DNA of 64,000 nt. Origin: Gracilaria domingensis. Taxonomy: Eukaryota; Rhodophyta; Florideophyceae; Gracilariales; Gracilariaceae. Location of the stretch: contig VCMS01000184.1 of the NCBI GenBank assembly GCA_022539475.1, forward strand, positions 48,084 to 112,083, in the 5' to 3' direction. The notes beneath the pieces are model-generated. The model had not been told where the DNA came from. It did no database searches and was given only the letters and a program-made list of their open reading frames with translations. The position numbers were made by a program, and so were the translations under genes. This document shows positions 3,001 to 64,000 of the stretch, one piece after another. Each line of letters begins with the position of its first letter. Within the stretch, counting starts at the first letter, position 1.

Positions 3001-5095
3001 CTGATGCTTCTTCAGTCGCGCTTGGTGCCGTTCTATCACAAAAGAAAGAGGACGGAATGTATCACCCGATTCAATTTGCCAGTCGCACGCTTAACGCCGC
3101 CGAGCGAAAGTATTCTACTTGTGAAAAGGAGGCCCTAGCCGTGGTCTTTGCCTTGAAGAAGTTTCGCATGTATCTGCTCGGAGGTCACCCCTTTGAGCTT
3201 GTTACGGACCACCAAGCTTTAAAGTATGCATTCCAAAAGAAGGACATTCACGGGCGCCTAGCCCGATGGATGGACCTGCTGGCGGAATACGAGTTCGTTA
3301 TAGTCTATAGATCTGGCGACAAGAATCGGGCTGCCGACTATCTCTCTCGCTTTGCCGTTGGGGATCCACCGGTGCCGGATGATGACGTGTCTGTTGTACT
3401 GAATGCGACGAACGAAGTCTATGACTTGGAGCTCTTCTGCGCGCACATCAAGTTGTACCTTGCCGCCTTTTCTTTTCCTGAAGAAGACCCTAAGATCCGC
3501 GCTTTGATTAAGAGGAATGCGAAGAAGTTCTTCCTCTGGGAAGGTCTCCTCTATCGCCGTACCAAGAAAGGATTAAGAGTGGTACCCTCTGTAAGCAAGC
3601 GCCGTGGCATCCTCTCATCCTTTCATGATGACATAGGACATTGGGACTTGGAGGCTACTAAGGATCTGGTCCAGTTCCGATTCTGGTGGCCTGGAATGTA
3701 CCCCGACATCGTTTCATATGTTCGCAGTTGTGATGGGTGTCAGTTCACAACACCCCTGCTTAAGTACCGGCCAGGACAAAGAGCCCCATTGACTGGCCTA
3801 TTTCATACATTCTCTGTGGACTTCGCCGGTCCTCTTCCGGCTACCAGGAATGGCAACCGTTTTGCTCTGATTGGTGTAGAACACATAACAGGATGGCCTA
3901 TTGCCGCGGCCTACGGTAATCAGACCTCTACCACCGTCATTCACTTTGTTCGATCTCCGATCGTTTCCCCGTTTGGTCCCCCGCTGACGATCGTGTCCGA
4001 CAACTTCAGTTCCTTCAAAGCCAAGGCAGTCGAGGCATACATGGAAAGTAAGAAGATATCCCTCAAGCCAAGAAATCGATTGCCAAGACAATCTTCAATA
4101 AGGGACAAGAATGGGATGAAGCCCTCGAGCAGATACTTTACGGATACAGGAGGCGCCGGCTGGGTGGCGGGTTTTCTCCTTTTGAGCTCATGTATGGCAC
4201 TGTCCCACGGATGAGCTCAGACGACCTACCCCCGCTCATCGTAGATCCAACCCCCACTAATCGTCATCATGAACTACTGTCAAATTCCGCAGGCAGGGCT
4301 TCCAGAGTTCTATCTCAACCCAATCGACAAGACGACCCCAAGTCTGGGCACCGGTTCAACGTCGGTGATGAAGTCTTGGTGATACATGGGAAAGCTCTTA
4401 ACCCCAACGTGAAGTGGGCTGCCTTTCAGTCAAAATTCTACGGACCCTGTAAGGTGGTTAAAGCCAGGCACCCCCGATATGTCCTAGTGTCCCCTCATAA
4501 TCGCTACACTAGAGAAGGAGTTCACGCCCGCCGGCTCAAGCGGTATCACCGCCGACCAGTTCATCTGCAGGACGAGGTGGTAGCCACTATTACGGAAGGC
4601 GAGGACGCCCCTGCCCCATATCCCACGCAGATCACCGTAATGCCACTCCGCGTTGACTACAATATCCTCACTGCACCCCACCTCTCGTGTCACTTTATCA
4701 TTGGAGGGAAAAGCATACATTCATGGCTTAGCCCTTTGAACGTCTCTATCCAAGAGGTGGAAAGGGTTACCTGGACGCTGACGCATGCCTCACTCGCCCT
4801 GTTCTCAATCTCGGGCCCGTTCTTGAGTCGTAGAGGAGGATCCATCTTAAGAGCCTTATTTCGACGTGTGCACCAGAACTACGGAAGTAATATCGCGCCA
4901 GAATTCGTGGTATACCTTTACCACCATGCAGTCTCCTTGCATGGGCATCTCCCAGAGTCGCAACTCTACATACAAGAGACTCAGGACCATATATCGCACT
5001 ATGCTCGCACAGGAATCGCTCGGATACTCAGCTACACCCCCGACCCAGAGAAGCTAGCAGTACCCTTTCTCTTCCACTATACCACCGAGAATTAG
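1..5095 (+). pseudogene. Ty3/gypsy retrotransposon gag-pol polyprotein, degenerate, 5' end outside window
   Basis: The frame is open from base 3, so the window starts inside the element. In order: a retropepsin-like segment with the active-site motif LDSGA near 366-380; a long acidic linker; a reverse transcriptase with the YIDD box at 2556-2567 and MPFGLMNAPATFQ before it; an RNase H domain (ETDASS, TDHQALKYAF) at about 2985-3350; an integrase zinc finger (H-x4-H, then CDGC) at about 3620-3745; and an integrase core with two acidic residues (VDFAG, VSDNFSS). Two lesions are visible. An in-frame TGA at 2214-2216 falls where RTs of this family have a conserved Trp. Near 4060 the frame shifts and the segment expected to carry the third catalytic acid is missing. 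The frame to 5095 then carries the integrase C-terminus (SPFELMYGTVPR, FYGPCKVV) plus a tail of about 170 residues that I do not recognise. The element is non-autonomous as it stands. LTRs were not resolved. Confidence 0.93.
2214..2216 (+). other. in-frame TGA stop inside reverse transcriptase
   Basis: The reading frame is the same before and after this codon. RT homology resumes immediately (SFPVVIAHKKDGKPRF). Ty3/gypsy RTs usually have Trp at this position (SPWxSPVV), so a single TGG to TGA change explains the stop. Confidence 0.85.
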
Positions 5096-5133
5096 CTCAG
5101 TACTTTCGACGCCCGATGTAGCGTCGTTTGAGC

Positions 5134-5173
5134 TCGCGGGTGTGTGAGGAAGAAAAGAGGGGTGGAGGAAAAG
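5134..5173 (+). other. purine-rich tract, possible polypurine tract of the retroelement
   Basis: A run dominated by A and G (gaggaagaaaagaggggtgg and onward) lies just after the pol frame and is followed by TG at 5174. This is the position and composition expected of a polypurine tract before a 3' LTR. I could not find the matching LTR end or a second LTR, so the call is tentative. Confidence 0.3.
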
Positions 5174-5241
5174 TGAGCGGTGCATGCGCTGCGCCGCTCA
5201 TTTTTTTATTTTGAAGAGTACGCCGACACGCGCAGGGCGCA

Positions 5242-5634
5242 CTACTTCTGTAAGCGCGCCAGTAAAATTTCGAGGAGCGGCGCAATGATATGCGACGCAT
5301 CATTGCGGCGCCCCTCGCACACAAATATTATACCGCGAATTACGCCGCGCGTATACAGCGTCGGCGCCTGATTGATAAGGTCCATAAGGCGGCGCCGGTT
5401 CGCGTAAACGTCGAAATTCCCGGTAGAAACCTCTCGGAGAAACTGCTCCAATTCTCCGAGAAGCGCTTCCGAAAACCCAAACCCCACGACTTCCTGGGGC
5501 AGGGTGTGTTCGGCGTCCTGGACACTGGGGGCGGGGGCCGGTGCCGGAACCGCCTCCACGTCCACGAGAGGGCCGAGCCCAGGTAAGGACTCGTTGGCTG
5601 GCGATGGGACCGGGCTGGTGACGTGATCCTTCAT
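5242..5634 (-). CDS. hypothetical 130-residue protein antisense to the retroelement tail
   Basis: The frame opens with ATG at 5634. The N-terminus is Pro/Ala-rich (about residues 5-35), followed by a segment that looks like folded helical protein, with hydrophobic repeats such as LMDLINQAPTLYTRG and APLLEILLARL. Two other frames are open here because the DNA is GC-rich, so the ORF could be chance. The amino-acid composition argues for real or recently real coding sequence. No family is recognised. It runs opposite to gag-pol and could be an accessory ORF in the 3' part of the element or an unrelated gene. Confidence 0.4.
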   Translation of the reverse strand: MKDHVTSPVPSPANESLPGLGPLVDVEAVPAPAPAPSVQDAEHTLPQEVVGFGFSEALLGELEQFLREVSTGNFDVYANRRRLMDLINQAPTLYTRGVIRGIIFVCEGRRNDASHIIAPLLEILLARLQK

Positions 5635-5733
5635 GACGAAATGTAGTTGATAGTTTGACGAACGATAGAGATAGGAGCATAAGACGCACGAGACTCATTC
5701 TTATAGTCTAGATCATAGGTTAGTGTGCACCTG

Positions 5734-5797
5734 AATTTGCCATGACGGCAGGTCATGGCAAGTGTAATTGCCATGATGGCAGGTCATGGCAGTGTCA
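5734..5797. repeat. two direct copies of a ~30-bp palindromic element
   Basis: The core gccatgac-ggca-ggtcatggc occurs twice, about 31 bp apart, with C/T variation in the spacer. Each unit is an inverted repeat (GCCATGAC against GTCATGGC). A weaker half-match (gccagcatggcgg) follows. The array lies about 220 bp upstream of the TATA-like box at 6008, so a regulatory role is possible but unproven. Confidence 0.7.
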
Positions 5798-5901
5798 TTC
5801 GCCAGCATGGCGGTATAACACCTTGTCATAGGTACACGTGCATTCCACGACGAAGGCTGCGTGGCGTAGGCGCCCCCTGCGGTGGCAAATGCGCCAAACA
5901 T

Positions 5902-5940
5902 ATCTACCGTCTACACCCCTCATTGGGTAGGACGGTAGAT
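5902..5940. repeat. perfect 10-bp inverted repeat (hairpin)
   Basis: atctaccgtc at 5902-5911 is the exact reverse complement of gacggtagat at 5931-5940. The 19-base middle contains a second weaker pairing (CTACaCCC with GGGTAG). It lies upstream of the TATA-like box and could form a hairpin or cruciform, or bind a dimeric factor. Confidence 0.7.
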
Positions 5941-6007
5941 ACAACGCAGCCATTGGCCAAGCCAACCGTACCGACGATTCTCGCTGGGAATCGACGGTGC
6001 GGTTGTG

Positions 6008-6015
6008 CATAAAAG
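6008..6015 (+). promoter_or_regulatory. TATA-like box for the C2H2 gene
   Basis: cataaaag lies in a GC-rich setting and is followed by a long pyrimidine-rich stretch (6050-6560) that resembles a 5' untranslated leader. The next gene in the same direction is the zinc-finger gene whose first intron begins at 6633. The box could instead be the promoter of an unresolved LTR. Confidence 0.4.
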
Positions 6016-6631
6016 GGCCGGAGCAGTCGCCTCCGACTCAACTCCGGCCAGACCACTTCCCCTTCGACGACCTCCCCCCACCCTCACTCCTCATCTCTTT
6101 CCCCCTTCGTCGTCTCAACCTTCTTCCCCCCCATCCCCAATCTCTCTCGATCTCCCCCTTTGGCGGCTTGGTCTCAACGCCCACAACGTTCCCTGCTACT
6201 CACACAGCCCCCCCTCTGGGCTCGTCTCGTGTGAGTCGGCAAAGCGTCCGCACTACCCTACCGTTGGATTAGCCTTGTGCGGGCGTGCCTCTCTCTCCCG
6301 AAGTCCGTTCTTCTTGGTTCCCCGTCCCTCCTTCTTCTCCGTGGTGATTCTCTTTGTTGTCGTTGTTCTCGTCATCGATCTTTCCCGTTTCCATACCCCA
6401 CGGTTGTCTTTGTTGTTGCTTCCCTTCGTTCCTTCGTCGTTGTGCGGGCCTCTCCTGCCTGCATCTGTTCCCTTGCTTCTCTTGTCGGCCTTGGACTCAG
6501 GTTTCGCTGGTTCTTTCGCGTTGCGATTCCGTTCCTCACATAGTGTTGCTTTGCACCTGTTGTTGCTAGACACACTGTGTGATACGGCGTAAGGTTCCCA
6601 TTAACCTACGGCCCTGAGGCAATCGTTCAAG

Positions 6632-7132
6632 AGTAAGTTGTTCTCAGCTGCTCTTTTGGCATTTTGTGTGACTACTAACTTCTTGTTTGTTTCACATCAA
6701 GTGCCAACGTCTTTCGTCTCATCCAGCGAGTATTCGTCCGTGGTTGACCCGGACGAGCGTCTAGAAGAAGTCCCTGACCCCGTTTCGCAGATAAAGAAGT
6801 CGGCTGTGCAGCCTCTTGACGGGCCACGCGAGCGCCATATCTTTCGCGAAGCCACTCAGAAGGAGAAGCGCCGTCGTAACCCTCCGCCGCGTAAGCGAAT
6901 CTTCAAACGCTGTCGTTTCTGTGACATCCAGGTCCAGAGCCAGCGTCAGCCTGAAGTACATCAAGCCGGCCGTCGCCATCGCAGAGCTTTGCGCCGTGCA
7001 AACTACACCGAGCTGGACATTCACTGCAAGGCTTGCGACATCCGGTTCTCTGAAGCCCACGATCTGCGCGTCCACTACCGGAGCCGTCGTCATCGTGCGA
7101 CACTTAGAAAGAAGAACAATACTATCTTTTAG
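6632..7132 (+). CDS. two-finger C2H2 protein (split start codon, intron 6633-6701)
   Basis: The spliced product is about 143 residues. Two tandem fingers of the C-x2-C-x12-H-x5-H type occupy the C-terminal half: CRFCDIQVQSQRQPEVH...H and CKACDIRFSEAHDLRVH...H. The H-x5-H spacing and basic linkers (RRHRRALRR) resemble U1-like or JAZ-type fingers, which often bind RNA or double-stranded RNA; that role is inference. Just upstream is a textbook intron with donor GTAAGT at 6633, branch-like ctaact near 6674 and acceptor tttcacatcaag ending at 6701. Joining 6632 to 6702 makes A|TG, so the start codon is created by splicing. The exon upstream would be 5' UTR. Without splicing the frame could open at an alternative start inside the intron, which I consider less likely. 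Confidence 0.6.
   Translation, partial: SKLFSAALLAFCVTTNFLFVSHQVPTSFVSSSEYSSVVDPDERLEEVPDPVSQIKKSAVQPLDGPRERHIFREATQKEKRRRNPPPRKRIFKRCRFCDIQVQSQRQPEVHQAGRRHRRALRRANYTELDIHCKACDIRFSEAHDLRVHYRSRRHRATLRKKNNTIF
6633..6701 (+). other. 69-nt GT-AG intron that splits the ATG of the C2H2 gene
   Basis: Donor GTAAGTTG, branch-like actactaact, pyrimidine tract and acceptor catcaag are all present. Removal joins ...ttcaaga to tgccaacg, producing an ATG in frame with the zinc-finger ORF. Confidence 0.6.
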
Positions 7133-7173
7133 AGCACAGGTTTCTCTTTTCATTGTCCAGTTGTGACACATTT

Positions 7174-7521
7174 CTATTCATATCCTATTACATATATTAT
7201 CCTTGTTTGTTCTTCTTTATCTTTTTGTCTATCGTTCGGTATCCCTCCTCTGTTCTTGTGTTCGTGCTTGTGTTGTTTGGCTTCTGCCGCAAGCTTATAT
7301 TTGGCTAGTGCTTCTTCGTCCGATTGGACTGGTAATCTACGAGAGCAAACTTTATTTTTATCGTTTTTGCCCCCTTTGGCTGTAACCGCCGACGCCATCA
7401 CCAAAATGGCGTTTTCAATAACTTTAATCTCATCGTGCCCACTAATACTAACTTCAAAATTTTCCTTTGGAGAAACAGATGGCCACTCTAACTTTATATC
7501 TGTATTCTCTTTCTCCGGCAT
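7174..7521 (-). CDS. hypothetical 115-residue charged protein
   Basis: ATG at 7521 lies in a reasonable context (aacATGcc). The product is hydrophilic, rich in Lys and Glu, and has a basic His/Lys stretch (KQHKHEHKNRGG). It ends 41 bp from the end of the C2H2 gene, so the two would be convergent. No family is recognised. The overlapping plus-strand frame encodes a hydrophobic low-complexity sequence that looks less protein-like, which weakly favours the minus strand. Confidence 0.3.
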   Translation of the reverse strand: MPEKENTDIKLEWPSVSPKENFEVSISGHDEIKVIENAILVMASAVTAKGGKNDKNKVCSRRLPVQSDEEALAKYKLAAEAKQHKHEHKNRGGIPNDRQKDKEEQTRIIYVIGYE

Positions 7522-8129
7522 GTTGGTTCATTGCAGTTTATTTGAACGCGGCGTTTCTCAAGGGAAGTCGGCGAGGAATTGCTTTGACGCTGGGAAAGCA
7601 GAGGGCTCGAAGGGAAGCGTAGGACGCGATCAAGGAAAGTGCGCGCTCTCGTTCCCAACTTTTCATGACAATATTTTAAGATGGCTGCAGTCAGCGGCGT
7701 GATGTCTTCTCAGACAGATCAAGAAAATGCGGGCTGCCTGACAACTTCGATTGGCCAAAGGAGAGACCGTGAGCGATTCTGCGTCGGTAGTATGCTCATA
7801 TGAAGCGAATTGGTCTGTGAACATTATTGCTCTGCTTGGGCTCGCTTTCGGAAGTCAAAGACCGCAAGTATTGAGTCAGCTTCAACTACGGAGCAAATTT
7901 GAGTACGAGCAGTACTTCTATCTTTGCAAAATATTTAACAAACCTTCAGGCCAACCCACAACCTCTATATCTACTCACATCGGAAATGTCCGAAGTACAT
8001 AATGTTTTGATTCTATGAAAGTTCCGTATATTTGATAGCACTTCTCGCTGATGAGAACGTTGGTGCTGAAAGTAAAGCTAACTACTTACTGTTGTCTTTG
8101 GACTTTGGTTTTGTTTGAATGCAATGTGT

Positions 8130-8234
8130 TTTTGACGAAGGACTCGAACCTTTACATGATAGCATCAAAAGCTAATGCCTTACCAACGGCGAGAGAGTAC
8201 TGTAGAAGGACGCCCACTGACTCTCTCCTTCGTC
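8130..8234 (-). tRNA. tRNA-Gln(UUG)-like sequence, probably a pseudogene or atypical
   Basis: Read on the minus strand there is a D-arm (GCC-gttggtaa-GGC), an anticodon arm with loop TTTTGAT giving anticodon UUG and a 4-bp stem (TAGC/GCTA), and a perfect B-box (GGTTCGAGTCC). The core resembles bacterial or organellar tRNA-Gln. The expected acceptor strands (about 8199-8193 and 8136-8130) do not pair. A longer fold does pair at its ends: GACGAAGG near 8234 with CCTTCGTC near 8134, leaving an extra hairpin of about 35 nt before the D-arm, but that pairing competes with the T-stem. The best reading is a decayed or organelle-derived tRNA copy. A tRNA with an unusual insertion is a minor alternative. 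Confidence 0.4.
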
Positions 8235-8395
8235 GAGGACGACTTCCGTTTAGGAAGTGCGGTGCTTGTAGCCTGATTCGTATCATCCGATGCTCTTATC
8301 TTCTTCTGTCCACTCTTGTTCCGCTGCGTACTATTTCGCTTTCTCGGCGTTATACCCATGTTGTGGAGATAAACGGGGTAGTGAAACGAAATTGT

Positions 8396-8420
8396 TGGGG
8401 GAGGAGGGGGTGGGGGGGTG
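8396..8420 (+). other. G-run cluster (possible G-quadruplex)
   Basis: Runs of 5, 2, 5 and 7 G separated by single A or T bases lie in otherwise mixed sequence, about 180 bp from the 3' end of the minus-strand SET gene. Confidence 0.55.
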
Positions 8421-8602
8421 CATGGTTCAGATATTCCGGGAGACTCCGCAGTTCCTGCCTTTTAGGAATTTGAGGTGCCCAATGGGTCGCAAATATCTCC
8501 GTTACAAATAGATGAAGAGCTCCAGTGTACATGTTCAACGCGTATTGCAGGCAGCTGCAACATTCACAAGCATATTTACTTTCTATTCGGTACTGCACTC
8601 AT

Positions 8603-10280
8603 CTATTGCTCCAATGTCGGAGCCCAGTCCCAGGCGTACTGCTCTCCGTAGTTGAAATACAACTCTTCGCCCCTCTCAATATCTCTTACTGCTCTACAAC
8701 GAAGTAGAGCATAGTTAGAAAGGTCGGACTTAAACTGTATCAAGGACTTCGCTTCCACCATCTGCACATTGGCACTTCGAGTCCTGTTTGACCGGGGCTG
8801 CGATAAATCGGGATCCCCGGCATGATATCCGGCGTCGTTAATGTAGCCCCCGATACAAAAAGGCGCCGGGACAATGTATACTTCGCTCTCCTTTCTATCC
8901 TGAGCCTGTCCTGGTCTGTTCCTCAGGTGCAGAAACTCCGAACCAGTCACAGTGACCATCATAGAAAACAACTTGTACCGCACTGGAGTTGCTCCGAGAC
9001 AGCCACTTCCATACGTTAAGTGTCTTTCCTTCCGGTTCGTCAGATCCGTGTATACCAAAGTTCCATAAAAATGACAGATAGTTTCCCCAGCCAATATCTT
9101 ATGTTCCGTGAACACTCCCATACCAGCACGGGGATGTCGAATCTTAGAAGATGCTACATGTAAGCGATAGCGATTGGCTTCAACAGTCAACAGCATATGC
9201 ATATCCATTAGATTCAGAGCTCCTCGGTACTTCTCGTCCCAAAGATCTACAGTATGCTGTCCACAATTGTCGACAAACTCCCAGTCCTTCCAGTATCTTC
9301 CTAGGAACTGAGTAATATGTGCAGGCATCATTTGGTACTGGTGGTATCCAAATGGAGCCTCCCATTCAAGCCGACCTCGGTCCCGATGTGGAACCCGTTC
9401 ATAAGTCGTTGAAGCAGCATCCACCACCTCTTGTTCAACCACGATGTCATTCTTTCCCCCGCGAAGAAGTTCGGCCATAAGAGTCGTTATATGGTGCTTC
9501 GAATGGCTGAAACATGGCCTATTCTTCTCGCACCCCAAGAACTTCCTATGCTTTGTCAGCGATAGGCACGCCATACACGTAGAAATATTTCCCGCGAACA
9601 TGTCCATGACAAGATCACCCGGTCTTGTGAACCGACATATCAACTCTTTCATCAACTCCCTGGACTTCTGCTCCGGTCTTATGTACTGCCCACTTGGTAC
9701 TGAACTACCTGGCTCATTTACCTTCCATGTCAACCACTCCCCCGCTCTTGGTTTCGGCACCCGGTCAATTACATTCCTGTTAGCCGGGAAAGTAGAAGGA
9801 ATGAAATTGTTCTCCTCAAATGGAGTAAGACTGGCTTCCTCGGATGGTCGCAATCCACGCTTCACCCCATGAACGGCGTACTCCGTTACGGGCTGTATCC
9901 CAAACTTCCGTGGATTCCCGCCAACATTACTTCGATCCCGGATGAAGACCAGTGGATTCCCATCCACTTTAAACGAAGGCATGAGTTCTGGCTTACCTTC
10001 CCTTCCAGCGTCATCTTTCATACTCGCCGTTTCCAACAGTATTCAAGTCAGCCGTACTGATCATGTCATCCTCACTGAAGACATCGTGAGCACTATTCCG
10101 TTTGCTCCTCTTCCTTCGAGTGTCAAAGGGAGGGTCTGTTAGGACAAGCTGTCCCTCACCCCATAAAATCTCACTCTGATTCACAAATGTTTCATGTGTG
10201 TGCCTCAGGTCCTTCATGTCACAGTTGTACGCTACAAAGTATGACTTTCTCATCCCCTTCCACACCTTGTCCATATTCAT
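8603..10280 (-). CDS. beta-class amino DNA methyltransferase fused to a SET domain
   Basis: Two frames join if a 43-nt intron (10057-10015, donor GTACGG, acceptor AAG) is removed. The first exon carries LVLTDPPFDTRR (about 10110-10150), the catalytic DPP(Y/F/W) motif IV of N6-adenine/N4-cytosine DNA methyltransferases. Downstream, FTRPGDLVMDMFAGNIST is the AdoMet-binding motif I, so motif IV precedes I as in the beta class. The last ~190 residues are a SET domain: GMGVFTEHKILAGETICHFY, then INDAGYH, then DIERGEELYFNYG. SET proteins use AdoMet to methylate lysines, usually on histones. The fusion suggests a protein writing both DNA and protein marks; this is inference. The bacterial-type methylase half points to horizontal acquisition. 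ATG 10280 is the first in frame, but the frame stays open upstream to about 10402, into the 2.1-kb repeat, so the true N-terminus may lie in another exon. A frameshifted pseudogene is the alternative to the intron. Confidence 0.75.
10015..10057 (-). other. putative 43-nt intron in the methyltransferase-SET gene
   Basis: On the minus strand it runs from GTACGG to GAAAG. Its removal moves the reading from the motif IV frame to the motif I/SET frame with phase 1. A similar tiny intron (49 nt, GTACGT...AAG) occurs in the next minus-strand gene at 12953-12905. Confidence 0.5.
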
Positions 10281-10326
10281 TCGAAGGAGACTGAGGGGAT
10301 TAGGGGTCGTAGCATATATAATATAT

Positions 10327-12423
10327 GTGTTTACATTTCTACGCGGTACCTCACTGGCTAGACTAGCAAAGATTTTAAGTTCCCTAGACCGTCGTTATGG
10401 GACAGACAAAAAATTAACGAAAATGACAGAACGCAGTACCCGAACCATGTGTTAATAATCACATTTAAGGAATAAGAAAGACAATCCGACACAGAGCTTT
10501 TTAAAACTTATCGCAGAAAGTGTTAAAAAATTTAAGAAGGAAATTGAAATATTGAAGTGATGCAGATAGTATTTTGCAGGACAAAAATAGATATTAATAT
10601 ATATATTAAGGAGGTAGTTCTCATTGGACATAGTTCCTTATTGTTTTGAAGAGCGAAAAAGTTTTCGGGGAAGGAAATCTACTCTATGAACATCGAATCT
10701 GTCCCAAATATGGCCGAAGCATAACCAAAATGAGGTTGTTTAGCTCGAGAGTTTGTGAGCACGCCTATCTTGCCAAGAAAATCAATTTCTATTTAGGAAG
10801 ATATTGTAAAAATATGGCCAACGTATGGCGAAAATAGAGCCAACATATGGCCGAAATATGACCATTTACGAAAATATAAAAAGTTCGCCGCCACGACTTA
10901 CACGTTTTTACAAAAGTTTGATATGAACGCCTTCATTTCGGTCACTTTATGGCCAAAGTCTGCACAGATTCGATTTTAATAAGGATTATGACGATGAAAA
11001 TAATATCTCTAGTACGATTTAACTAATGAAGACAAGCCGCATAAAGGTTTCCATACATCATTGAATGATATTAACTATAAATGGTTTAAGCGAATTATTG
11101 CAATCGAAAGCGATATTAGCAGGAAAATATATTCCCCACGTATGACGTTCCGTCATTGAATATTCATGTACTTCTCTGTATGTAGACAAAGTTTTGTAGA
11201 TGTTCAAGGCATTCTCAATGGCTGGAAAGTATTAGAAAATTTTCTTTCAGCAAAATCTCAGTATATTCTGATGCAATGAGAACATGATGACGCACGACGG
11301 GAAATGAACAAAAGAAGCTCTCCGACTAGATACCAAAAACATTTGTGCAGTTCGGAGCACGTTTGATAGCTATCCTGAGGTTGAGGACCACTTTTCTTCT
11401 GATGAAAGAGCTGCAGCACAGATTCACCACCGCTCAACTCCATGATAACCATACTCTCTGGAACCATTGCTCTCACAGATACGGGTTCGTATGAGAGTCT
11501 TAACCTTATAATATCAAAAACTTTGAATGCAATTGGCCTTGCATCGTATCGGTTTTCGCGATTACGTGCGGAGTTCTTGTCACACTTTTTCACACGGTGA
11601 TTGAGAAAGTATTTTTCTCTCAGCTCTCATTCTCAATTTTTTGGATGGAAAATGGGCCAAGTTGTTATTTGGTGTAAGGTAGATCTCTGGTTCTTGATGT
11701 CGAGTCTCAAAACGCAGGAATATTTTGCATGCTGTTCGAAAAGCACTCCCTCCCCACGGAATGGTGACGAAATCAATCGGGTCAATATCGACAACAAGTT
11801 TCAGAGAGACTCCCGGCGTTTTTGGAAGAACAGAACTTCTGTTATAAGAAACTTTTCTTCGTACACAAGAACTGAGAGAGAATCCGTCCGTGAAAACGTT
11901 ATCAATAGAGTTTTGATATTGCTCAGTAGCGTCTTCCAAACTCAATCCGTTCGCAGATGGGGCTTGATACTGATAGTTATCCGAGTGCTCTATTCTCTGC
12001 AACAAATTAAACGACGCATACAAGAAAGAAATACAATGCGTGTCTGCATCGAAATCGTCAAGAATGCACGTTGGAACGCGGTATTCCGCTTCAGAGTCAT
12101 GTTGTAGAGCTGGACGGTTAACAACTGTCCTTCCTTCAGAACCAAATGTCGAACTAGATGCTGTTCGTGTACGATTCGAACTTGTACGGTTGGAACTTGT
12201 TGAGAGCGGGACGGGGTCGTTCCTCCTCTGCGAAAGATCATTTCTAGCTCGCGGCTTTCCAATTGTTTCCTCTTCTTTCTTTCCCTCGCTTCTCTCTGTC
12301 GACAGTTTCTCAGTGGAAAACGAATTCGAATGAAATGACGAAGGGTTCTCGTTCAATGTAGACTTTGGTTCCTTGTTACTGTTTCCTGCAAAAGTTAAGA
12401 TTGTATTCTGCGATGGTGCACAA
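10327..12423. repeat. 2.1-kb direct repeat, copy A
   Basis: It matches 14215-16312 with only scattered substitutions. The right-hand 1.6 kb is almost identical; the left 450 bp differs more, with a few substitutions and small indels. The repeat carries the 3' part of an unrecognised minus-strand gene, its downstream spacer, and at its left end the in-frame N-terminal extension of the methyltransferase-SET gene. The two copies lie in the same orientation about 3.9 kb apart. Confidence 0.95.
10331..11257. other. AT-rich spacer with repeated TATGGCC words
   Basis: No ORF with domain content is seen. Between about 10705 and 10955 the word tatggcc/tatggcg recurs about six times with gaaaat and aaat spacers. 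The same block is present in copy B (14590-14845). Confidence 0.5.
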
Positions 12424-13158
12424 AGCACAAGACCATCATTCAGGTCAGCACAGTTTCCGTTTTGCACGCATAGGACAACCACACCGCTTAGTGGCAACTT
12501 ATCGCAATGTTTCGCTATTCACTTGACAGCATTTTTTTCATACACGACTATTGCTGCATCGTTAGGAGTCTTCAGATTAGTGGTTTCTTCGAGTAAACGC
12601 AGCATCAGATCCTTCTCAAATTTCTTGTTACGGTCGCAAGGGCTAGAAATTGCGTCCTTCAGAAGCCGATGGGCTATAATTGCTATACATTGCACCAACT
12701 TTTCGTATGGTTTTGTAAACACGATGAACGCATTCTGAGGTTGTTCTGAACCATTTGCATCATTTTCGTTAATATCAGACCCCTCGATCCAAACGCCACC
12801 ATGGTTTTGCCGAAGTGTCATAGCTCTCCTCAACATCTTTCTTCGCGTTTCCGATTTTAACGCATTAGGAATCTGTTCATATCCGAATGGAACAATTCCG
12901 TATCCTTCCCGTTTATTTTTTCGAATAAAAACGGCTTGCTTCCTCTAACGTACCTGTCCCATTTCGAATGATGCTTTGAATGGTTGTTCTTTCAGGTATT
13001 GAAAACGTTCTAGTTTTCGTCCAACGATCGAGAACAGCCGCCCGGAGTCTAATCGTCTGCGTAGTCGAAAGCCCCATATTATCTGCGAGAAATACTTCCA
13101 GAGAAAAATGTTCAATACGAGATCCGACACGAGACTGAAGTCTTGTGCCTGATATCAT
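11258..13158 (-). CDS. unrecognised split gene (copy A, longer form)
   Basis: The first segment starts with ATG at 13158 and ends at a 49-nt intron (12953-12905: donor GTACGT, acceptor GGGAAG). Splicing joins it cleanly to a second segment beginning YGIVPFGYEQIPN. That frame runs to a TGA at 12516-12518, beyond which the same frame stays open to 11580. A 36-nt intron (GTGAAT...ACTAAG) would remove the stop; otherwise it is a nonsense mutation. A final segment in another frame runs from about 11593 to 11258. The middle part has a Ser/Arg/Glu-rich low-complexity stretch (PLSTSSNRTSSNRTRTASSS), then a more folded region (LVVDIDPIDFVTIPWGGSAF). The last segment has MVIMELSGGESVLQLFH. I do not recognise the family. 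Everything left of 12423 is duplicated in copy B. Confidence 0.5.
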
Positions 13159-13199
13159 ACTCCTTCCAGCATGAAACGTTTGTCAAACGTGTCGTAGCT

Positions 13200-14214
13200 A
13201 ATTTTGAAAATTGAAAAGATTTGCAACAAATCCTAAATATATTTTACTCATGTCGCCAATTTGTCACGCTCTTTGAGGATAATGGCTCTTGAGGTTTAAG
13301 TCATAAGCAATGTTTAACCGATTCAGATCAACCACAACTTTTGCAAGTCGAAAGGGCACACCAGAAGTTGACCCAAACATGTACTGCCTTGGAGCTCTTA
13401 TCAAGAACTTTCCCTTGATAAAGATCTCATGGTTGTTTTCTACTCTTCTTGACCAAGTTTAGTGGCGTATAAATTTTCCTGAAAAGACTGAAATGGTCAT
13501 TATCATTCCTCACCCTGGATGACAGCACTAAAAACTGCAGCTACCTCGCACGACGTTTTGTACCCCAAGCCCCCTTATATACGCTATCATCTTGCGTGGC
13601 GGGTTCACGAGCCTACCAATGGGGCTAGGAAACGCCTGTTCATTCCTCCAAACCCTTCAATCTCGAGTTTGCACATTGCATCGTACGCCCTGCTCCGCAG
13701 TGTCCAAGAACGCCATAAGGACAAGCACAGCCCATTCTACCGTTACGACCTGCCAAATAAGCCACTTACAGCGGCTGTCTTGGTTGCTTAGCAAATGACG
13801 GGTGTGGTAAGCCACCAATGGCGGGGTTGGGACGGCCAGCAGATTAGAAACCTGCCAAAAGTCTTCCCAGTCAATGTCACGAAAGAACGGGAGTCGAAGG
13901 TACAAGCCCCGTCGGTCTACGGCTTTCATATCGTGAAACTCTATCTGGTGCAAGCGGAATAGGTACAATTAAAAACGGAAAAATGTAATTAAAAAACGAG
14001 AAAAGTAGCTAAAACGCGATAAAAATGAAATTAGACCGAGAGGTAGATGGGTTTCCTCTCTTTTGATTGCATATTGCAAATAGGTCGTCGGTGACGGATG
14101 AGGTCGGGGGTTTTCGGGGGTTTGTACTGTGGTTTAAGCTGAGATTTGTTCTTTGACGAACTCTAAGGGTCCTATCTAGTGACTATAGTATAGGTCGCAC
14201 CATCTATAAAATAG
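13200..14214. other. spacer between the two 2.1-kb repeats
   Basis: A minus-strand stretch at about 13800-13968 reads as protein-like (KAVDRRGLYLRLPFFRDIDW) but is short and not recognised. A plus-strand fragment near 13600-13640 (SLPMGLGNAC) faintly resembles the reverse-transcriptase MPFGLxNAP box. No intact gene is seen. A dispersed repeat occupies 13963-14055. Confidence 0.35.
13963..14055. repeat. dispersed repeat, copy 1 (second copy at 19555-19690)
   Basis: Both copies share acaattaaaa, then gaaaatgtaattaaaaaa, agtagct, aaacgcgataaa and gaaatt(a/g)gacc(g/a)agaggtagatggg. The copy at 19.6 kb has about 40 extra bases between gataaa and gaaatt. Confidence 0.8.
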
Positions 14215-16312
14215 GTGTTTTCATTTCTACGCGGTACCTCACTGGCTAGACCACCAAAGATTTTAAGTTCCCTAGACCGTCGTTATGGGACAGATAAAAA
14301 ATTAACGAAAAGAACAGAACGCAGTACCCGAACCATGTTTTAATAATCACAGCGAAGGAATAAGAAGAAGGAACAGACACAGAGCTTTTTAAAACATATC
14401 GCAGAAAGGGTTAAAAAATTTAAGAAGGAAATTGAAATATTGAAGTGATGCAGATAGTATTTCGCAGGACAAAAATAGATATTAATATATATATTGAGGA
14501 GGTAGTTCTCATTGAACATAGTTCTTTATTGTTTTGAAGAGCGAAAAAGTTTTCCGGGGAAGGAAATCTACTCTATGAACATCGAATAGGGCCTAAATAT
14601 GGCCGAATGCTGACCAAAATGAGGTCGTTTAGCTCGACAGTTTTTGAGCACGCCTATCTTGCCAAGAAATTCAATTTGCATCTAGGAAGATATTGTAAAA
14701 ATATGGCCAACGTATGGCGAAAATAGAGCCAACATATGGCCGAAATATGACCATTTACGAAAATATAAAAAGTTCGCCGCCACGACTTACACGTTTTTAC
14801 AAAAGTTTGATATGAACGCCTTCATTTCGGTCACTTTATGGCCAAAGTCTGCACAGATTCGATTTTAATAAGGATTATGACGATGAAAATAATATCTCTA
14901 GTACGATTTAACTAATGAAGACAAGCCGCATAAAGGTTTCCATACATCATTGAATGATATTAACTATAAATGGTTTAAGCGAATTATTGCAATCGAAAGC
15001 GATATTAGCAGGAAAATATATTCCCCACGTATGACGTTCCGTCATTGAATATTCATGTACTTCTCTGTATGTAGACAAAGTTTTGTAGATGTTCAAGGCA
15101 TTCTCAATGGCTGGAAAGTATTAGAAAATTTTCTTTCAGCAAAATCTCAGTATATTCTGATGCAATGAGAACATGATGACGCACGACGGGAAATGAACAA
15201 AAGAAGCTCTCCGACTAGATACCAAAAACATTTGTGCAGTTCGGAGCACGTTTGATAGCTATCCTGAGGTTGAGGACCACTTTTCTTCTGATGAAAGAGC
15301 TGCAGCACAGATTCACCACCGCTCAACTCCATGATAACCATACTCTCTGGAACCATTGCTCTCACAGATACGGGTTCGTATGAGAGTCTTAACCTTATAA
15401 TATCAAAAACTTTGAATGCAATTGGCCTTGCATCGTATCGGTTTTCGCGATTACGTGCGGAGTTCTTGTCACACTTTTTCACACGGTGATTGAGAAAGTA
15501 TTTTTCTCTCAGCTCTCATTCTCAATTTTTTGGATGGAAAATGGGCCAAGTTGTTATTTGGTGTAAGGTAGATCTCTGGTTCTTGATGTCGAGTCTCAAA
15601 ACGCAGGAATATTTTGCATGCTGTTCGAAAAGCACTCCCTCCCCACGGAATGGTGACGAAATCAATCGGGTCAATATCGACAACAAGTTTCAGAGAGACT
15701 CCCGGCGTTTTTGGAAGAACAGAACTTCTGTTATAAGAAACTTTTCTTCGTACACAAGAACTGAGAGAGAATCCGTCCGTGAAAACGTTATCAATAGAGT
15801 TTTGATATTGCTCAGTAGCGTCTTCCAAACTCAATCCGTTCGCAGATGGGGCTTGATACTGATAGTTATCCGAGTGCTCTATTCTCTGCAACAAATTAAA
15901 CGACGCATACAAGAAAGAAATACAATGCGTGTCTGCATCGAAATCGTCAAGAATGCACGTTGGAACGCGGTATTCCGCTTCAGAGTCATGTTGTAGAGCT
16001 GGACGGTTAACAACTGTCCTTCCTTCAGAACCAAATGTCGAACTAGATGCTGTTCGTGTATGATTCGAACTTGTACGGTTGGAACTTGTTGAGAGCGGGA
16101 CGGGGTCGTTCCTCCTCTGCGAAAGATCATTTCTAGCTCGCGGCTTTCCAATTGTTTCCTCTTCTTTCTTTCCCTCGCTTCTCTCTGTCGACAGTTTCCC
16201 AGTGGAAAACGAATTCGAATGAAATGACGAAGGGTTCTCGTTCAATGTAGACTTTGGTTCCTTGTTACTGTTTCCTGCAAAAGTTAAGATTGTATTCTGC
16301 ATTGGTGCACAA
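14215..16312. repeat. 2.1-kb direct repeat, copy B
   Basis: It is collinear with 10327-12423 at an offset of 3888-3889 bp. At its left end (minus-strand reading) a short frame matching the methyltransferase N-terminal extension (ELKIF...LASEVPRRN) is kept, but the methyltransferase and SET domains are absent. At the right end the sequence departs from copy A at a shared ggtgcaca. Confidence 0.95.
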
Positions 16313-16422
16313 CTGACGTGGGAATTCTTCTTATTCAATGAATCACTTCGCTCCGAAGTAAAATCGCATGCAGTCCTTTTAGGTAGCACGTCGGTGCATA
16401 GGAAAACTGGCCTCCATTCCAA
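15147..16422 (-). pseudogene. unrecognised gene (copy B), truncated with a replaced 5' end
   Basis: It encodes the same product as copy A from TILTFAGNSNKEP onward, with about three amino-acid differences (for example E to G and R to H). The first ~45 residues differ because the repeat ends at 16312 and unrelated upstream sequence supplies them. The exons present upstream in copy A are missing. As in copy A, the last segment (15482-15147) is in another frame and would need splicing. It is probably a non-functional duplicate. Confidence 0.55.
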
Positions 16423-18316
16423 ACAGCTACAAACAAAGGAAATACTTGTAAGAATCTTCTGCTTTCCTGAACTGTTTGACCGAAACGGAAGACCTGCACT
16501 GACCTCCTGGAAGTTCCATTCCGACTGAGGCTGTGGTTTCGCCCGAAATTGACAAAGTGCAAATTCTGACTAAACGTGGCTAGAACTGCGGCCTTCTGCT
16601 TTCGCCATGATTTCTCATAACACGGGTTCCCGATGAAAAGAGATTTTCCAACAGAGAACTCGAAGGGTGATATGAGAGCGTCATCTCTTCCCTGGAGGGG
16701 CGAAGGAAAGTAACCGGGGCCCGGTAGAGACTTGCTCCCGTACAAGGCGCGGATACTAAAGATACTAAACCAAAACATGGAAGATCACCTAAGCACCGTG
16801 AGTCAACTTTTGGAATCTCATGCTTCTCACAAATTCTTGAACTCTTGAGATTGAATCGAAAAGAGTTGTAATTAAATGGAACCTTGATCTCCTCTATGTG
16901 CAATTCACCACCGGAAGGCCCATAGTTATATCTATATATATTGCAGCTCTTACACCTGGATAGACGTAACTGTTTTGGGCCCTTGCGGAGAATTACTGTT
17001 CGTGTAAGTGTTCAACGAAGGTCTCCGAAAATTAATGGAAATACAGTAAGCCCCCAATTTCAAACGTCTGATGGATATTATCTCATGCGTAGTTTCTGCC
17101 TACGGTTTGTGGATCGTTTCAAAATGTCTTAATGGCACTTCATCCGAGAGCCCTCGTTGTACTGTCGAGTAGGAGACCAATGCGGGAAACGAGTTGTCCG
17201 AAGCAGATTTATGTAACGTACTTGTATCTACTATCTACGTTTTAGAGTGAGAGCATTGAGCAAAAGCTCAAAAATATTGTTCAAACGATTTGGATCAGAA
17301 GAAACAACCTTAATAATAGTGGTTCTAACGCTTTCATATTGCAATTATTAGGTTGGGAAATCGGAACTTTGTAGCAGCGAGAAGGTGTATCGACTACAAG
17401 TGCTTCATCTTAAGTAAGTGACGCAAATCAGTAAAGCGTTAATAATAGTTTTTGACGTAGGGAGTCGCTGCTAGGTTCTGAGTTAGCACGTAGAATAGTT
17501 CATAGTATTCATAACGTTACAAGTATTGGGAAACCATCCAGTAAATTGCATCGCGCTCTATAAATGAGCAGCTCGAGAAGTATGAACTTGTATAAAAAAC
17601 TACATTTTCGCAAGAATCCTTGAATAAACCAAATGCTTTCTATCACGATCCATTGCGACGTACACATGGGATTGTCACCAAAATATTTAACCTGCACAAA
17701 ATATACTAAATATACTACCGTATATTTGTTTTGGAGTAGAGCGCCTCGGATTATTTTTCATACTTTGCCAACACGATGTTTTATTGTAAATCGCCGTTTA
17801 GCTGGGTACTTCTACAACGTATCAAGAAGGATGTACACTAGTCGCAAAATTTTGTTCAAATATTTCGAAGGGACAAAAGCTTTTTTACGTGATCCAGCCG
17901 GCAGCTTACCCGCAGGAAGCGGTGAGGGGAACCAAAGTACTATCGTAACTATCATCAAATAAATCCTTAGGCCATTGTATGAAATTATTGTGAAGATATT
18001 GGAAGCATCGGTGAAAAGACGGTATCCATCATAATACAATCCTTCACAGAATGAAGTAGAACTTACAAAACATTTACACGTAATGCGCAGATATTACGTA
18101 TCTTTTTCACAATTCCAGAGAAATGGTGCTCATGAGATCGGGAATTCTTTTTGTAAGCACAAGGTTCAGGATTCCAAACTTGCTTTTCTCAAAAGAGACA
18201 AGGAGGAATCCCATGCATATAGAATGACCAATATGTCTTCTTTACTTTCCGCCTCTTCAATATCTCATATTCGTAGAGGTTTCTGACGAAAGTAGTTCTT
18301 CCCACCTCTCGCACAA
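16313..18316. other. no gene recognised; AT-rich towards the right
   Basis: A 147-residue minus-strand frame at 16335-16778 overlaps the 5' end of the copy-B gene and contains some protein-like sequence (ISPFEFSVGKSLFIGNPCY), but I cannot assign it. From 16900 to 18300 I see only short ORFs. Confidence 0.4.
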
Positions 18317-19136
18317 ATGCCTTCGTTTCATGTTGACGGCGTGCCCGTGAATCTGCCTTTCGAACCCTACAGAGCACAGCTATCCCTTATGCACGCTGTA
18401 ATTTCTACTGGGAAGCAGAGCAAGAACGCTGTTGTAGAGTCTCCAACGAGGACGGGGAAAAGCACTGCGCTTCTATGCTCTTCCTTTGCTCTACAAGACT
18501 TTCTTTTCCGAAAGGGATACTTAAATGTCAAAAGGCCATTGAGCGTACCGAATCCTGGGAACAGATTGAGAGCATCAACGTCAAAAGGTTATTCTAATTC
18601 GTCCGACATATCTGGAGACAACTCGGACTCTGATTTTGAGGAACCTACGAGTTTTCGGGATACAACATGGCAGATATGCAACCGGAGCCAGGAAGGTTCT
18701 GATTCAGATCCGTGCTCTGAGCCGTTCGAGTATGCAGAAAATGAGAACTGTTTGACCTTTGTCCGTCCACAACTGGAAAAGAGATTCCAGAATGAAAGAG
18801 CATTGACGGAGTCACTCGCGTACTGTATGTAACTCGAACACATTCGCAAACTGCACAACTCGTCAGCGGGCTCCGGAAAACGGAGTACAGATCTGATAAA
18901 AGTTATTCTGGGTTCAAAGAAAGAGTATTGTATTCATCCGTTTGTACAGAATGCTGTCCACAAGAAACAACTTGGTCGAGCAATGCAGTCACGATCTGGA
19001 AAAAGGGGAAGCGGATACAACATAGTCTCCAAGCAACTTTCCGGACAGGAGATACTTGTCGAAGAGCCATGGGATACTGTGGATCTTAGAACACTCGGAA
19101 GGAAGACAAACGGCTGTCTTCTTTATGGGCCAATAT
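18317..19136 (+). pseudogene. decayed N-terminal copy of the FANCJ/RTEL1-like helicase
   Basis: Starting at ATG 18317 it parallels the gene at 46599: MPSFHVDGVPV against MPSFHVAGVPV, then a P-loop region, a Ser/Asp-rich insert (DNSDSDFEEPTSFRD) and SFRDTTWQ. The Walker A motif reads SPTRTGKST instead of SPTGTGKT, a change expected to impair ATP binding. After the stop at 18830 the homology goes on in other frames (YVTRTHSQTAQLVSGLRKT, then ILGSKKEYCIHP, then WDTVDLRTLGRKTNGC), with at least two frameshifts. It ends before the DEAH box, so most of the helicase is missing. Divergence from the intact copy is high, so this is an old duplicate or a relic of a related paralogue. Confidence 0.85.
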
Positions 19137-19689
19137 AGCATGATGCTAATGAAGCGGTTCGGAGCAGATTCATGAAGCATAGAAGTGATGAGCTCTTCAT
19201 GGTACGTGCATCAGCATGGTACTTGTTGGGAGTTAAATAAAAGTTGTAGTAAGGACTTTCTGGAGTTTGGCCGAGTTTTCAGAGACCGAATCAGCCTTCA
19301 ATGCTATCAAACTTGGTAGAGGGAGCACAACAATTAATACCTGAAGAATTTCGTAGGAGTGCAGGGCTTTTGATGCATTGAGCACGGCATTGAAGATGTT
19401 CGGAAACTCTTTGAGTTGAGATGCGATTGAGTGGCGTTAGTGTAGAGGAATGTTTTAGTAGTAATTAGAGTGGAGTGCAGCGGGACGCCGCTGAGAAGGT
19501 GAACAGGATACAGGGTGACACTGAGAAAGGTGTGGTGGATTGAGTTGCAAAAATCACAATTAAAAGCGGGAAAATGTAATTAAAAAAGGGGAGAAGTAGC
19601 TCAAACGCGATAAAGAATGGGCTGTAGCGACGAAACGAGTGCGATTTGCGGGCTGAAATTGGACCAAGAGGTAGATGGGATAGTTCTAT
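19137..19689. other. spacer with a dispersed repeat copy at 19555-19690
   Basis: The end of this stretch matches 13963-14055 (aaaatgtaattaaaaaa, agtagct, cgcgataaa, agaggtagatggg). No gene is seen. Confidence 0.6.
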
Positions 19690-19699
19690 ATATATTACC

Positions 19700-20770
19700 T
19701 AAAAATTAAGGTGCAGGGGGACCAAATTTTATTAAAAAATCAATGCTGAAATTTTACAAGGTGCTGATTTGCAGCTTGTCTGTGGCGTGCCAGGCACCTT
19801 GTTTTGTGGCTTCGAAGTTATGGTTAAGCTATTTGTCACTATGGCACTCTAAGGTTGGGGTTGACGATGCCACCGACGGGAACAAGATTGAGAATATTGC
19901 ATGGTGCTGCCGGGTTTGTAGGAGCACGTTGCGCTTGTCCAACTGCGGCTTCCGCCGGAACCCTCGTAGGCGCCACCTGCTCCTGCAGTCGCGATCGTGG
20001 GCTTCTACGCCCATGGCCATCCAACGAAGCCGTGTGGGGTCTTCTGATGAGCACGCCGTTCATTGAACAGCGCCGCTTCGTAAGCGTCGCGCACGACTGC
20101 ACCGTAAGCGCCGTGGACTCGCTGCTGTTCGGAAATGGCGCGCCGCTTGTGGGGGTGTGTCGGAGGCCTCGGATGGTGTTTGTTTAGCCACTGTTGCGTT
20201 TATTATCGACAAGTGCTGCTCTTGCTAGGTGGGTACCATTTGCGACGATGATAGCTTTCACCAGGATATGCTGGGCTGCATGGCACTCTACAACGGCTGT
20301 TCTAGCCCCCGTCCCTTTTTGTCCCAGCCAGCTGTGGCGCGTACTGGCCAGACGGTATTGCGCCTCGCCGCTGTGAGCAACAAAATTATGGTTTACGTTA
20401 AGTTGCGGTTGGACAGTGCAGAGTTGAGGAATGTGTAGTTGTAACGTGAAATAAAGGCTTGTGGACAATGATTAGGTTGTGCAGCACTTTTTCTGGCTCG
20501 TGCAGCTTGCAAGATTGGGGAGTGTCCGTGGTCTTTCGATCGGGCAATTTGCGGTGCCTGTGGAAGCACCTCGTCGTGTCTCGACAGGCACCTTGCTGCT
20601 GGCCTTTGCACCTTGCCGTGGCTGTACAGGCACCTTGCTGTTAGCTTGTGGACAAGATGTCGCGTCTCGACATGCACCTTGTGGTAGGCTTTCGCACCTT
20701 GTCGTGTCTCGACAGGCACCTTGCTGTTGGCCTTCGCACCTTGTTGTACAGGTAGCACCTTGATGAGATG
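19700..20770. repeat. CACCTTG-rich degenerate repeat region
   Basis: The opening (aaggtgc...caaggtgctgatttgc...ggcaccttg) matches the segment at 50555-50650. From 20558 to 20768 the word caccttg recurs about eight times in alternating settings (cgacaggcaccttgctg, ttcgcaccttg, tgtacaggcaccttg). Both caccttg and its complement caaggtg occur. ORFs through it are repeat-driven and not convincing genes. Confidence 0.75.
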
Positions 20771-30363: not shown

Positions 30364-30365
30364 AT

Positions 30366-50550: not shown

Positions 50551-50554
50551 ATTT

Positions 50555-51068: not shown

Positions 51069-51226
51069 TTCTAAAAACTATAGATGAAAGGATTAAGTGC
51101 GAAATGTATTGCTTCTTGTAACTTATGTTCGTTGATTCTACTGGTTCTTTTCATTTCAATTCCACAGTCTTTTATCTCCTCTTAAAACCACTTAAGCTGG
51201 TTCCTTCAAATCCAGGACAGACAGCG

Positions 51227-62390: not shown

Positions 62391-63183
62391 TTACAATACT
62401 TCCCATGAACAGCTGGGTCCATAGTCTACGTACACTTCTTCTTGTTCATGAATATCCCTTGTAGCCATCACCAACAGTTGTCTATAGCTTGCCAGTGTAC
62501 CCAATGTGGTAGCTTGATGCTCGGAGGGGTGTCGAATAATAGTGTTTGGTAAGCGGCCTTGGTAAGGCTCCATCTCGGCCAATCTTCTCCGTTCCCATCC
62601 CGGTACGAAGCATCATTGATGTAGCACGCTATACAGAAAGGAGCGGGTACTACCCAGGAATTGCAGTATTGATTTCGGAATCATACTGAGGAAGCGTGCT
62701 GTACATCTGCCTTTCAGCTTCACTTCCTGCAATACTCTTGAACGAGAAACGGTGGCAACCGAGCACTCCGTTCCGTATTCCATCTGTTTTGGCATTGCGT
62801 CGGTTATGTCATGATATACCAATGTCCATAGAAGTACCCGACAACCTCTCCTTCCGAGAACGATCTACTATTGAACACTCCATCTTCACTTATGGAGTGT
62901 TCGATGTTTGATTCTTCCTGTACAACATAACCTGCTGCTTCAGTGGCGAGCAAAGTTGTACATCCATCGTCTCCAATGCGCCTTGGAGATTCAGAGGCCA
63001 CTCGTGACCGGTTTCTCCTTTTGCTGAGCGATGAGACTCGTTCTGAAAACGTTGCGATGTAGGAATTGATATGAAACGGGAAACTTGGTATCGCGGGAAT
63101 CCTTTCCGTGCGGTCATATACGCGAGGTTCTTTGCTTCCTTCGGGGATTTGTCTGTACTAATACGAGGCTTGTACGACATCAT
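62391..63183 (-). pseudogene. second SET-domain gene, frameshifted
   Basis: On the minus strand the order is: AAGYVVQEES; GVFNSRSFSEGEVVGYFYG (62860-62825); a one-base shift, then TLVYHDITDAMPKQMEYG; a further shift, then VVPAPFCIACYINDASYRDG (about 62660-62600); and a last shift into LLVMATRDIHEQEEVYVDYG (about 62480-62415). This parallels the SET domain at 8603-9170 almost block by block (HFYGTLVYTDLTN, IVPAPFCIGGYINDAGYH, DIERGEELYFNYG). No methyltransferase motifs were found upstream, to the window end. At least three frame changes point to a pseudogene, though some could be short introns. Confidence 0.75.
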
Positions 63184-64000
63184 TACTGACAGTTGACGGT
63201 TATTCTTGCGTTGAACTCGTTACCCAACCTTCCTCGCATACATCACTAGCATTGTGTTCAGCATGAGCGAAGCACTGCTTACCTTCACATAATAAGCGTC
63301 AGGGCTCTTCCATGATGCACGCCAAGGCACCGGAAATGTTCCACTATAGGATCAACACAACGTCCCGGGATTTGAGAACTGGCAATGAGTTCCTTTAGCA
63401 GTGTCGGTTTTATTGGTGGTGACTGAAGAGTGTATTTGGGACGTTATTTAGTCCCAAGGAGTTTCAAGCCTAGATGCGGAACTGATTGATAATGGAGTAC
63501 TGGGGTAATGTTCGTGAGAAGTAGTTGAATTTTTGTAGTTCAGCATACTTTGCTCCCTGTGGTTCCATTCCGGTTGTAGAGCTATGGTTTGAGAGAAAAG
63601 GTGTTGTGTTCTTTCGGGGTTGTTCAAGTGTGCGTACGAGAGGGAATGAATTGGATGGGTGTGGGGGTGACAAAGACGGAAGCTTTTTGCAACACAGAAC
63701 CTTTTGATTTGTGCAAGGTAGAATTTTAGGGAATGTCCTAGTAGAAATTAAATTGAGGCAGGGGAGCCCATTGAGGCATCATTTCTGTTCCAGGCTTAAC
63801 TTAATCTTTGTTAGAGTCATCATGTCTGTTCAGTATACATAAGATGGCGTTCCGTGGGTACGAGTTGCATTGTCTCTAGGGATTATGGGAACGGTACAGT
63901 GTACATGAGCCTTACTAATTTCATAACATGATGCATAGGACTGTTGTATGTTTTTGAGGAACGAGAGCGTTGTGTCTAAATGGAAGTCGTGAGGTGGAAG
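63184..64000. other. no gene recognised at the window end
   Basis: Short ORFs only. The upstream part of the SET pseudogene might lie here but no motif is visible. Confidence 0.4.

Follow-up and report, generated by a model that had tools for sequence, protein, structure and literature searches.

We analysed a 64,000-nucleotide stretch of the red alga Gracilaria domingensis (GenBank assembly GCA_022539475.1, contig VCMS01000184.1, positions 48,084 to 112,083; hereafter the window) and found a minus-strand gene that joins a bacterial-type amino DNA methylase to a SET domain in one reading frame. A second, strongly decayed copy of this methylase-SET gene lies elsewhere in the window and keeps the two parts in the same order. 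The methylase-SET architecture is very likely real, and the protein may write marks on both DNA and chromatin protein. Coordinates of the features are collected in Table 1.

One open frame carries a methylase half and a SET domain

The first-pass annotation of the window had proposed that a beta-type amino methylase is followed by a SET domain in one polypeptide, with methylase motif I and the SET motifs in the same reading. We found a single unbroken minus-strand frame of 479 codons at 8603-10042 that contains motif I (VMDMFAGN) together with the SET motifs GMGVF, YINDAGYH and GEELYFNYG, which bears out the shared reading. When positions 8500-10500 were simulated 500 times with a first-order Markov model, the longest open frame reached 231 codons.

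The 479-residue frame was then compared with Pfam, including the two profiles that the annotation had named. PF01555 (N6_N4_Mtase) matched with 40.5 bits (expectation value, E, 3.8e-10; curated cut-off 26.7), and the match was limited to positions 160-213 of the 221 in the profile, which is the S-adenosylmethionine (AdoMet)-binding half of amino DNA methylases. PF00856 (SET) matched over its full length, positions 1-105 of 105, with 32.7 bits (E 1.1e-7; cut-off 22.4). Both profiles scored above their cut-offs, and the annotation's proposal was not refuted on the ground that it had named, an absent N6_N4_Mtase match. No chromodomain was matched in the frame at E up to 1, the SET domain being found instead, and residues 206-295, the linker between the two domains, matched no Pfam family at the same threshold. 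The in-frame profile matches, together with the colinear decayed paralogue described below, support the proposed order of methylase and SET domain in one polypeptide.

The methylase half and the upstream motif IV segment

We searched the Protein Data Bank (PDB) with the methylase half, and the nearest structures were chains of DpnA (E 2.6e-6), with CcrM at 3.3e-5; phrog_67 matched with an E of 1e-13. The methylase part was also aligned with six phage methylases (L003-L008), taken from eight loci fetched from among the best 30 of the 57 phage records matched by tblastn (see below); the two loci not used were L001, whose annotation is in split frames, and L002. The results showed that motifs IV, X and I and the Glu after beta-2 align across all six.

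In beta-class enzymes, motif IV precedes motif I. The annotation had placed the two motifs in this order in one reading. The order held, as the motif IV candidate TDPPF lies upstream of motif I at about 10139-10125, but it stands in a separate frame (minus-strand open reading frame 10011-10394). Among the 7 matches to [DNS]PP[FYW] in the six-frame translation of the window, it was the only one judged by eye to follow a hydrophobic strand with no stop nearby. The codon usage of the upstream segment resembled that of four long genes of the window only when read in its own frame (0.022; the other two frames gave -0.65 and -0.62), and its motif IV aligned with DPPY (four) or DLPY (two) in the six phage methylases. 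A match of the segment to PF10237 was weak and under the cut-off (E 0.0061; 16.7 bits, cut-off 23.2), and no PDB entry matched the segment at E up to 10.

To join the two frames, we searched for GT-AG introns of at least 25 nt with donors at 10140-10006 and acceptors down to about 9900. Seventeen such joins restored a continuous frame, some with donors or acceptors outside the likeliest frame-change zone, and a one-base slip fitted equally well. The particular 43-nt splice given by the annotation, 10057-10015, is just one of the 17 and gained no support over the others. Joining the motif IV segment raised the PF01555 score from 40.5 to 44.4-44.6 bits, a gain of about 4, with the reported stretch still short of motif IV. 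In the other genes of the window, a non-systematic inspection by eye established no intron that could serve as a model. On the sequence, the join of motif IV to the methylase frame is plausible.

The SET half

A SET profile made from the two copies was compared with the PDB, and the nearest structures were KMT5A/SETD8 (1e-5) and KMT2A (1.4e-4), with two weak stretches in the alignments shown. The SET half of the intact copy, searched as a single sequence, gave a best E of only 0.0048. The C-terminal Tyr-Gly is present in both copies, as NYG in the intact one and DYG in the paralogue.

A decayed paralogue keeps the same order

A tblastn search of the window with the 479-residue frame returned a second site at 63340-62400 on the same strand (E 4e-8). 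A frame-tolerant alignment at this site scored 320, whereas 12 base shuffles averaged 41 and reached 48 at most. Since frames get chosen to fit the query in such alignments, we tested the parts separately against 62 strand-segments of the window. The motif X-I-II part scored 89 at the paralogue, with 47 as the next best segment, and the SET part scored 203, with 59 as the next best. Under each of three stricter frameshift penalties, residues 130-472 aligned at 63401-62400. The distance from the end of the X-I-II part (63230) to the start of the SET part (62911) is 319 nt in the paralogue and 322 nt in the intact copy. Identity between the copies is about one third (113 of 351 aligned columns at penalty 12, and 36% in another alignment), and frame choice inflates both values. 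The methylase-SET order and the near-equal spacing indicate that the fusion did not arise as a chance reading and is older than the duplication.

The laxest frameshift penalty had also suggested that residues 26-110 are present in the paralogue; this reading was dropped, as neither the separate-part test nor the stricter penalties recovered them. Similarity upstream of 63401 likewise appeared only at the laxest penalty and was not significant, and the window ends at 64000.

Decay was uneven between the copies. Across residues 130-472, the paralogue carries 7-10 frame changes and 4-5 stops under the three stricter penalties, whereas the intact copy carries none, its sole interruption lying upstream of these residues. 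If the copies decayed at equal rates, the probability of at most one of 13 events falling in the intact copy is 1.7e-3, a rough value with events counted from alignments. This difference suggests that the intact copy has been under selection.

Relatives outside the window and known systems

Our scans for relatives started from short peptide patterns, which for the most part recover only near relatives, and were run on mostly prokaryotic and viral collections. Neither the pattern scans of IMG/VR (1, 2, 2 and 43 matches) nor those of genome_contigs (3 and 21 matches) yielded a two-domain relative confirmed by tblastn. With tblastn and an E limit of 0.01, matches came from 57 of 50,697 phage records and from 802 of 72,556 plasmid records, and in no record did they span 80% of the query. 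The best 30 of the 57 phage matches and the best 30 of the 802 plasmid matches all lie in the methylase part, and none reaches the SET domain. For the SET half, with E allowed to reach 1, the phage records yielded a single match at chance level (E 0.5) and the plasmid records none. Homologues with the same fusion, which the annotation had proposed to look for, are represented by the decayed paralogue in the window and by none confirmed in the mostly prokaryotic and viral collections. Among the literature matches listed (titles and abstract starts), we found no report of an amino DNA methylase-SET fusion; an earlier description may exist.

Two PDB entries of a DNA cytosine-N4 methyltransferase, 8s9m and 8s9n, which we take to be of bdelloid origin, matched at E 0.67-0.75, compared with 2.6e-6 for bacterial DpnA. 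If motif IV is joined, the protein shares with the bacterial and phage beta-class enzymes (DpnA, CcrM, MboIIA) the order of IV followed by X-I-II and the aligned motifs, but it differs from them in its FAGNIS motif I and in about 280 added C-terminal residues. Plant SUVH proteins, like SETDB1, use a SET domain to link histone methylation with the methylation state of DNA. To our knowledge, no DNA methylase is part of SETDB1 or of the SUVH proteins, which bind DNA or methylated DNA through MBD or SRA.

In the portion of PMC8885841 consulted, bdelloid N4CMT is described as a permuted N6_N4 methylase with a chromodomain, in agreement with the annotation, which had contrasted it with a SET fusion, and the bdelloid enzyme is stated to be without eukaryotic homologues. 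On that description, N4CMT and the present protein are both eukaryotic and both combine a bacterial-type N6_N4_Mtase domain, permuted here too if motif IV is joined, with a C-terminal chromatin domain, but the chromodomain of N4CMT is a reader, whereas the SET domain here is of the writer type. The same portion reports that bdelloid SETDB1 variants favour DNA carrying N4-methylcytosine (4mC); in SETDB1, as proposed here, a SET domain ties DNA methylation state to histone methylation (PMC8885841). SET genes are also carried by transposons, namely HarbingerS and MuDR (Phytophthora), and TET/JBP genes by Plavaka among others, according to the part of PMC12730594 consulted. These SET genes resemble the present one in lying near mobile DNA and outside the usual host chromatin genes; they differ in that the same part of PMC12730594 mentions no methylase fusion, and in that no element boundary was found here.

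A possible dual-marking enzyme and its alternatives

The explanation that we consider best, with roughly an even chance of being right, is a eukaryotic nuclear gene in which a bacterial- or phage-type beta amino methylase is connected, by some 90 linker residues, with a SET lysine methyltransferase domain, forming a dual-marking chromatin enzyme. Motif IV would be joined by a short intron, or would lie one base slip apart, completing the methylase. The methylase half would add N6-methyladenine (6mA) or 4mC to DNA, and a chromatin protein at that site would have one of its lysines methylated by the SET half. Through the covalent joining, one enzyme could lay both marks on the same stretch. By analogy with bdelloid N4CMT, which couples DNA methylation to histone marks, the likeliest role would be silencing or delimiting repeats. 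We rate this two-mark mechanism as about even at best. The broader proposal, that the gene family is older than the split of the two one-third-identical copies and that one polypeptide writes DNA amino-methyl and chromatin lysine marks at the same place, falls somewhat short of even. In eukaryotes, DNA marks and histone marks usually have separate writers, and the link between them is that one writer recruits the other. If the proposal is true, fused writers would make this link covalent and testable in one protein, and the gene would add to the cases in which eukaryotic chromatin has adopted a bacterial-type amino methylase, here with an attached writer in place of a reader.

Several observations weigh against the dual-marking proposal. 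The change of frame that separates motif IV from motif I has no explanation so far. Neither the 89 upstream residues with the motif IV half (score 26, shuffle mean 32) nor the target-recognition-domain side, residues 1-110 of the open frame (separate-part test), was found in the paralogue, and the linker scored 61 both at its colinear place there and in an unrelated segment, which is not significant alone. Both catalytic sites depart from the usual forms. Motif I has the canonical form FxGxG, which is absent here: it reads FAGNIS in the intact copy and YSGNIS in the paralogue, whereas the phage methylases have MGSG (five of six) or SGSG (one of six) at the glycine site; motif I retains its Asp, and the Glu after it is also kept. 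SET domains usually have NHS or NHC, and the Asn of this motif and the C-terminal Tyr have catalytic roles. The SET core here is NDA (IND-A in both copies), in which the Asn is kept and the His is absent. Since the FAGNIS/YSGNIS and NDA departures are common to both copies, they look like old family traits rather than recent damage; judged from these motifs, either the methylase site or the SET site may be altered. NCBIfam matches were far below their cut-offs (the CcrM model gave E 3.5e-5, but 22.9 bits against a cut-off of 830), and AlphaFold2, run on the single sequence without relatives, gave no usable fold (mean predicted local distance difference test score 28.3). Beyond the window, the scans of mostly prokaryotic and viral collections confirmed no two-domain relative, which says little about eukaryotes.

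The main rival, unlikely in our estimate but serious, is that the copy at 8.6-10.3 kb is itself decaying, so that the frame break is disabling and at most a SET protein from an internal start is made, with no DNA methylase. None of the joins is backed by transcripts, no counterpart of the motif IV half was found in the paralogue, and further broken copies occur in the window (the paralogue, the helicase copy at 18.3-19.8 kb and the nucleoporin-like gene with its stops). Against decay, the upstream segment has coding-like codon usage and an intact LVLTDPPF, and the intact copy shows one interruption in about 545 codons, compared with 12-14 disabling events in the 343 aligned residues of its sister under the three stricter penalties. 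A slightly less probable alternative is that only one half writes: the methylase part would no longer methylate and would act as a platform, binding DNA or AdoMet and directing the SET enzyme, or the roles would be exchanged. Noncatalytic Rossmann domains are known as targeting modules in other systems, and the deviation from FxGxG, common to both copies, seems to be old; the conserved motif IV TDPPF, motif I Asp and following Glu argue for a working methylase instead.

We consider it improbable that the gene is cargo of a transposon that captured both domains to manage its own silencing. SET and TET/JBP genes are reported inside transposons in the part of PMC12730594 consulted, and some 5 kb separate the decayed copy from a Plavaka transposase match, but the compared flanks share no significant similarity, the inverted pairs that bracket the gene are unconvincing, and the nearby 2.1-kb repeat has no target-site duplication by eye. 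Slightly more improbable is a methylase half that acts on RNA or protein. Related catalytic motifs do occur in RNA and protein amino methylases (PMC8885841, in the portion consulted), but the profile and PDB matches are DNA methylases, and the permuted order is that of the DNA beta class, though the place of motif IV hinges on the unproven join. An artefact, in which two unrelated genes were run together by chance or misassembly, is very improbable: the region does contain duplications and broken copies, but there is no frame break between the two domains, and the strongly diverged second copy, with its same order and near-same spacing, largely refutes it. A chance reading or run-together genes were rejected on the simulated maximum of 231 codons and the colinear paralogue.

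Genomic setting

The annotation had placed the gene among mobile DNA and duplications. This is true of the window (Table 1), but the flanks of the two copies have no significant similarity that would point to carriage of the gene by a mobile element. This comparison covered 10500-7000 against 64000-59800, where the end of the window truncates the upstream flank of the paralogue. In 5000-20000 there are nine inverted pairs of 14-23 nt, and the two that bracket the whole gene are 14 nt long with 93% identity, unconvincing as element ends. The duplicated 2.1-kb segment upstream of the gene contains a TATA-like stretch by eye and may hold the promoter of the methylase-SET gene.

Table 1. Positions of the methylase-SET gene, its decayed paralogue and associated repeats and mobile elements in the window
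Feature	Position	Strand	Description
Retroelement, presumably Ty3-type	6-5095		Matches to protease, reverse transcriptase, RNase H and integrase; an in-frame TGA separates the first two
Fused open frame	8603..10042	-	479 codons: motifs X, I and II (AdoMet side), linker, SET, stop
SET domain	8645..9124	-	Residues 307-466; PF00856 match
Linker	9158..9427	-	About 90 residues (206-295), between methylase and SET domains
N6_N4_Mtase match	9518..9691	-	Residues 118-175; motif X, motif I VMDMFAGNIST, then Glu
Likeliest frame-change zone	9992..10057	-	Short intron or one-base slip
Upstream coding segment	10014..10280	-	89 codons from first in-frame ATG (10280); carries motif IV LVLTDPPF
2.1-kb segment	10305..12423		Duplicated at 14193-16312 with 97.8% identity; ends 25 nt upstream of the ATG
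Plavaka transposase match	56442-57326		About 5 kb from the decayed paralogue
Decayed paralogue	62400..63401	-	X-I-II remnant (ending at about 63230) and SET remnant (about 62911-62400); stops and frame changes

Neighbouring genes were also inspected. A plus-strand frame at 6605-7132, converging on the methylase-SET gene, has spaced CxxC...H motifs that by eye resemble U1-type zinc fingers. A DEAD_2-type helicase gene, presumably CHL1/DDX11-like, is present as a pair (18311-19808 and 46593-50655) about 27 kb apart, with an intact copy of 809 codons and a partial, diverged copy at 18311-19808; it forms a second pair of intact and broken genes in the same window as the methylase-SET pair. The gene at 32803-39118 is Nup192/205-like, with a PF11894 match just under the cut-off (27.9 against 28.7 bits), and contains in-frame TGA and TAA codons and one frame change, beyond which the reading continues. 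A long minus-strand reading at 40404-44511 contains an in-frame TAG. Sequencing errors, decay or C-to-T change are possible sources of the stops in these two genes.

Another intact frame, of 1615 codons at 21250-26097, encodes an OrsD domain and a helicase (DEAD, Helicase_C) that we take to be RecQ-like. At 29900-32213, a fragment that by eye is decarboxylase-like is followed by a DEAH-type helicase frame without a visible front part, and the region reads as if two gene pieces had been joined. At 51192-51674, a 63-bp unit is repeated 5.6 times with 97% matches, and its reading gives a repeat protein in which Cys residues recur regularly.

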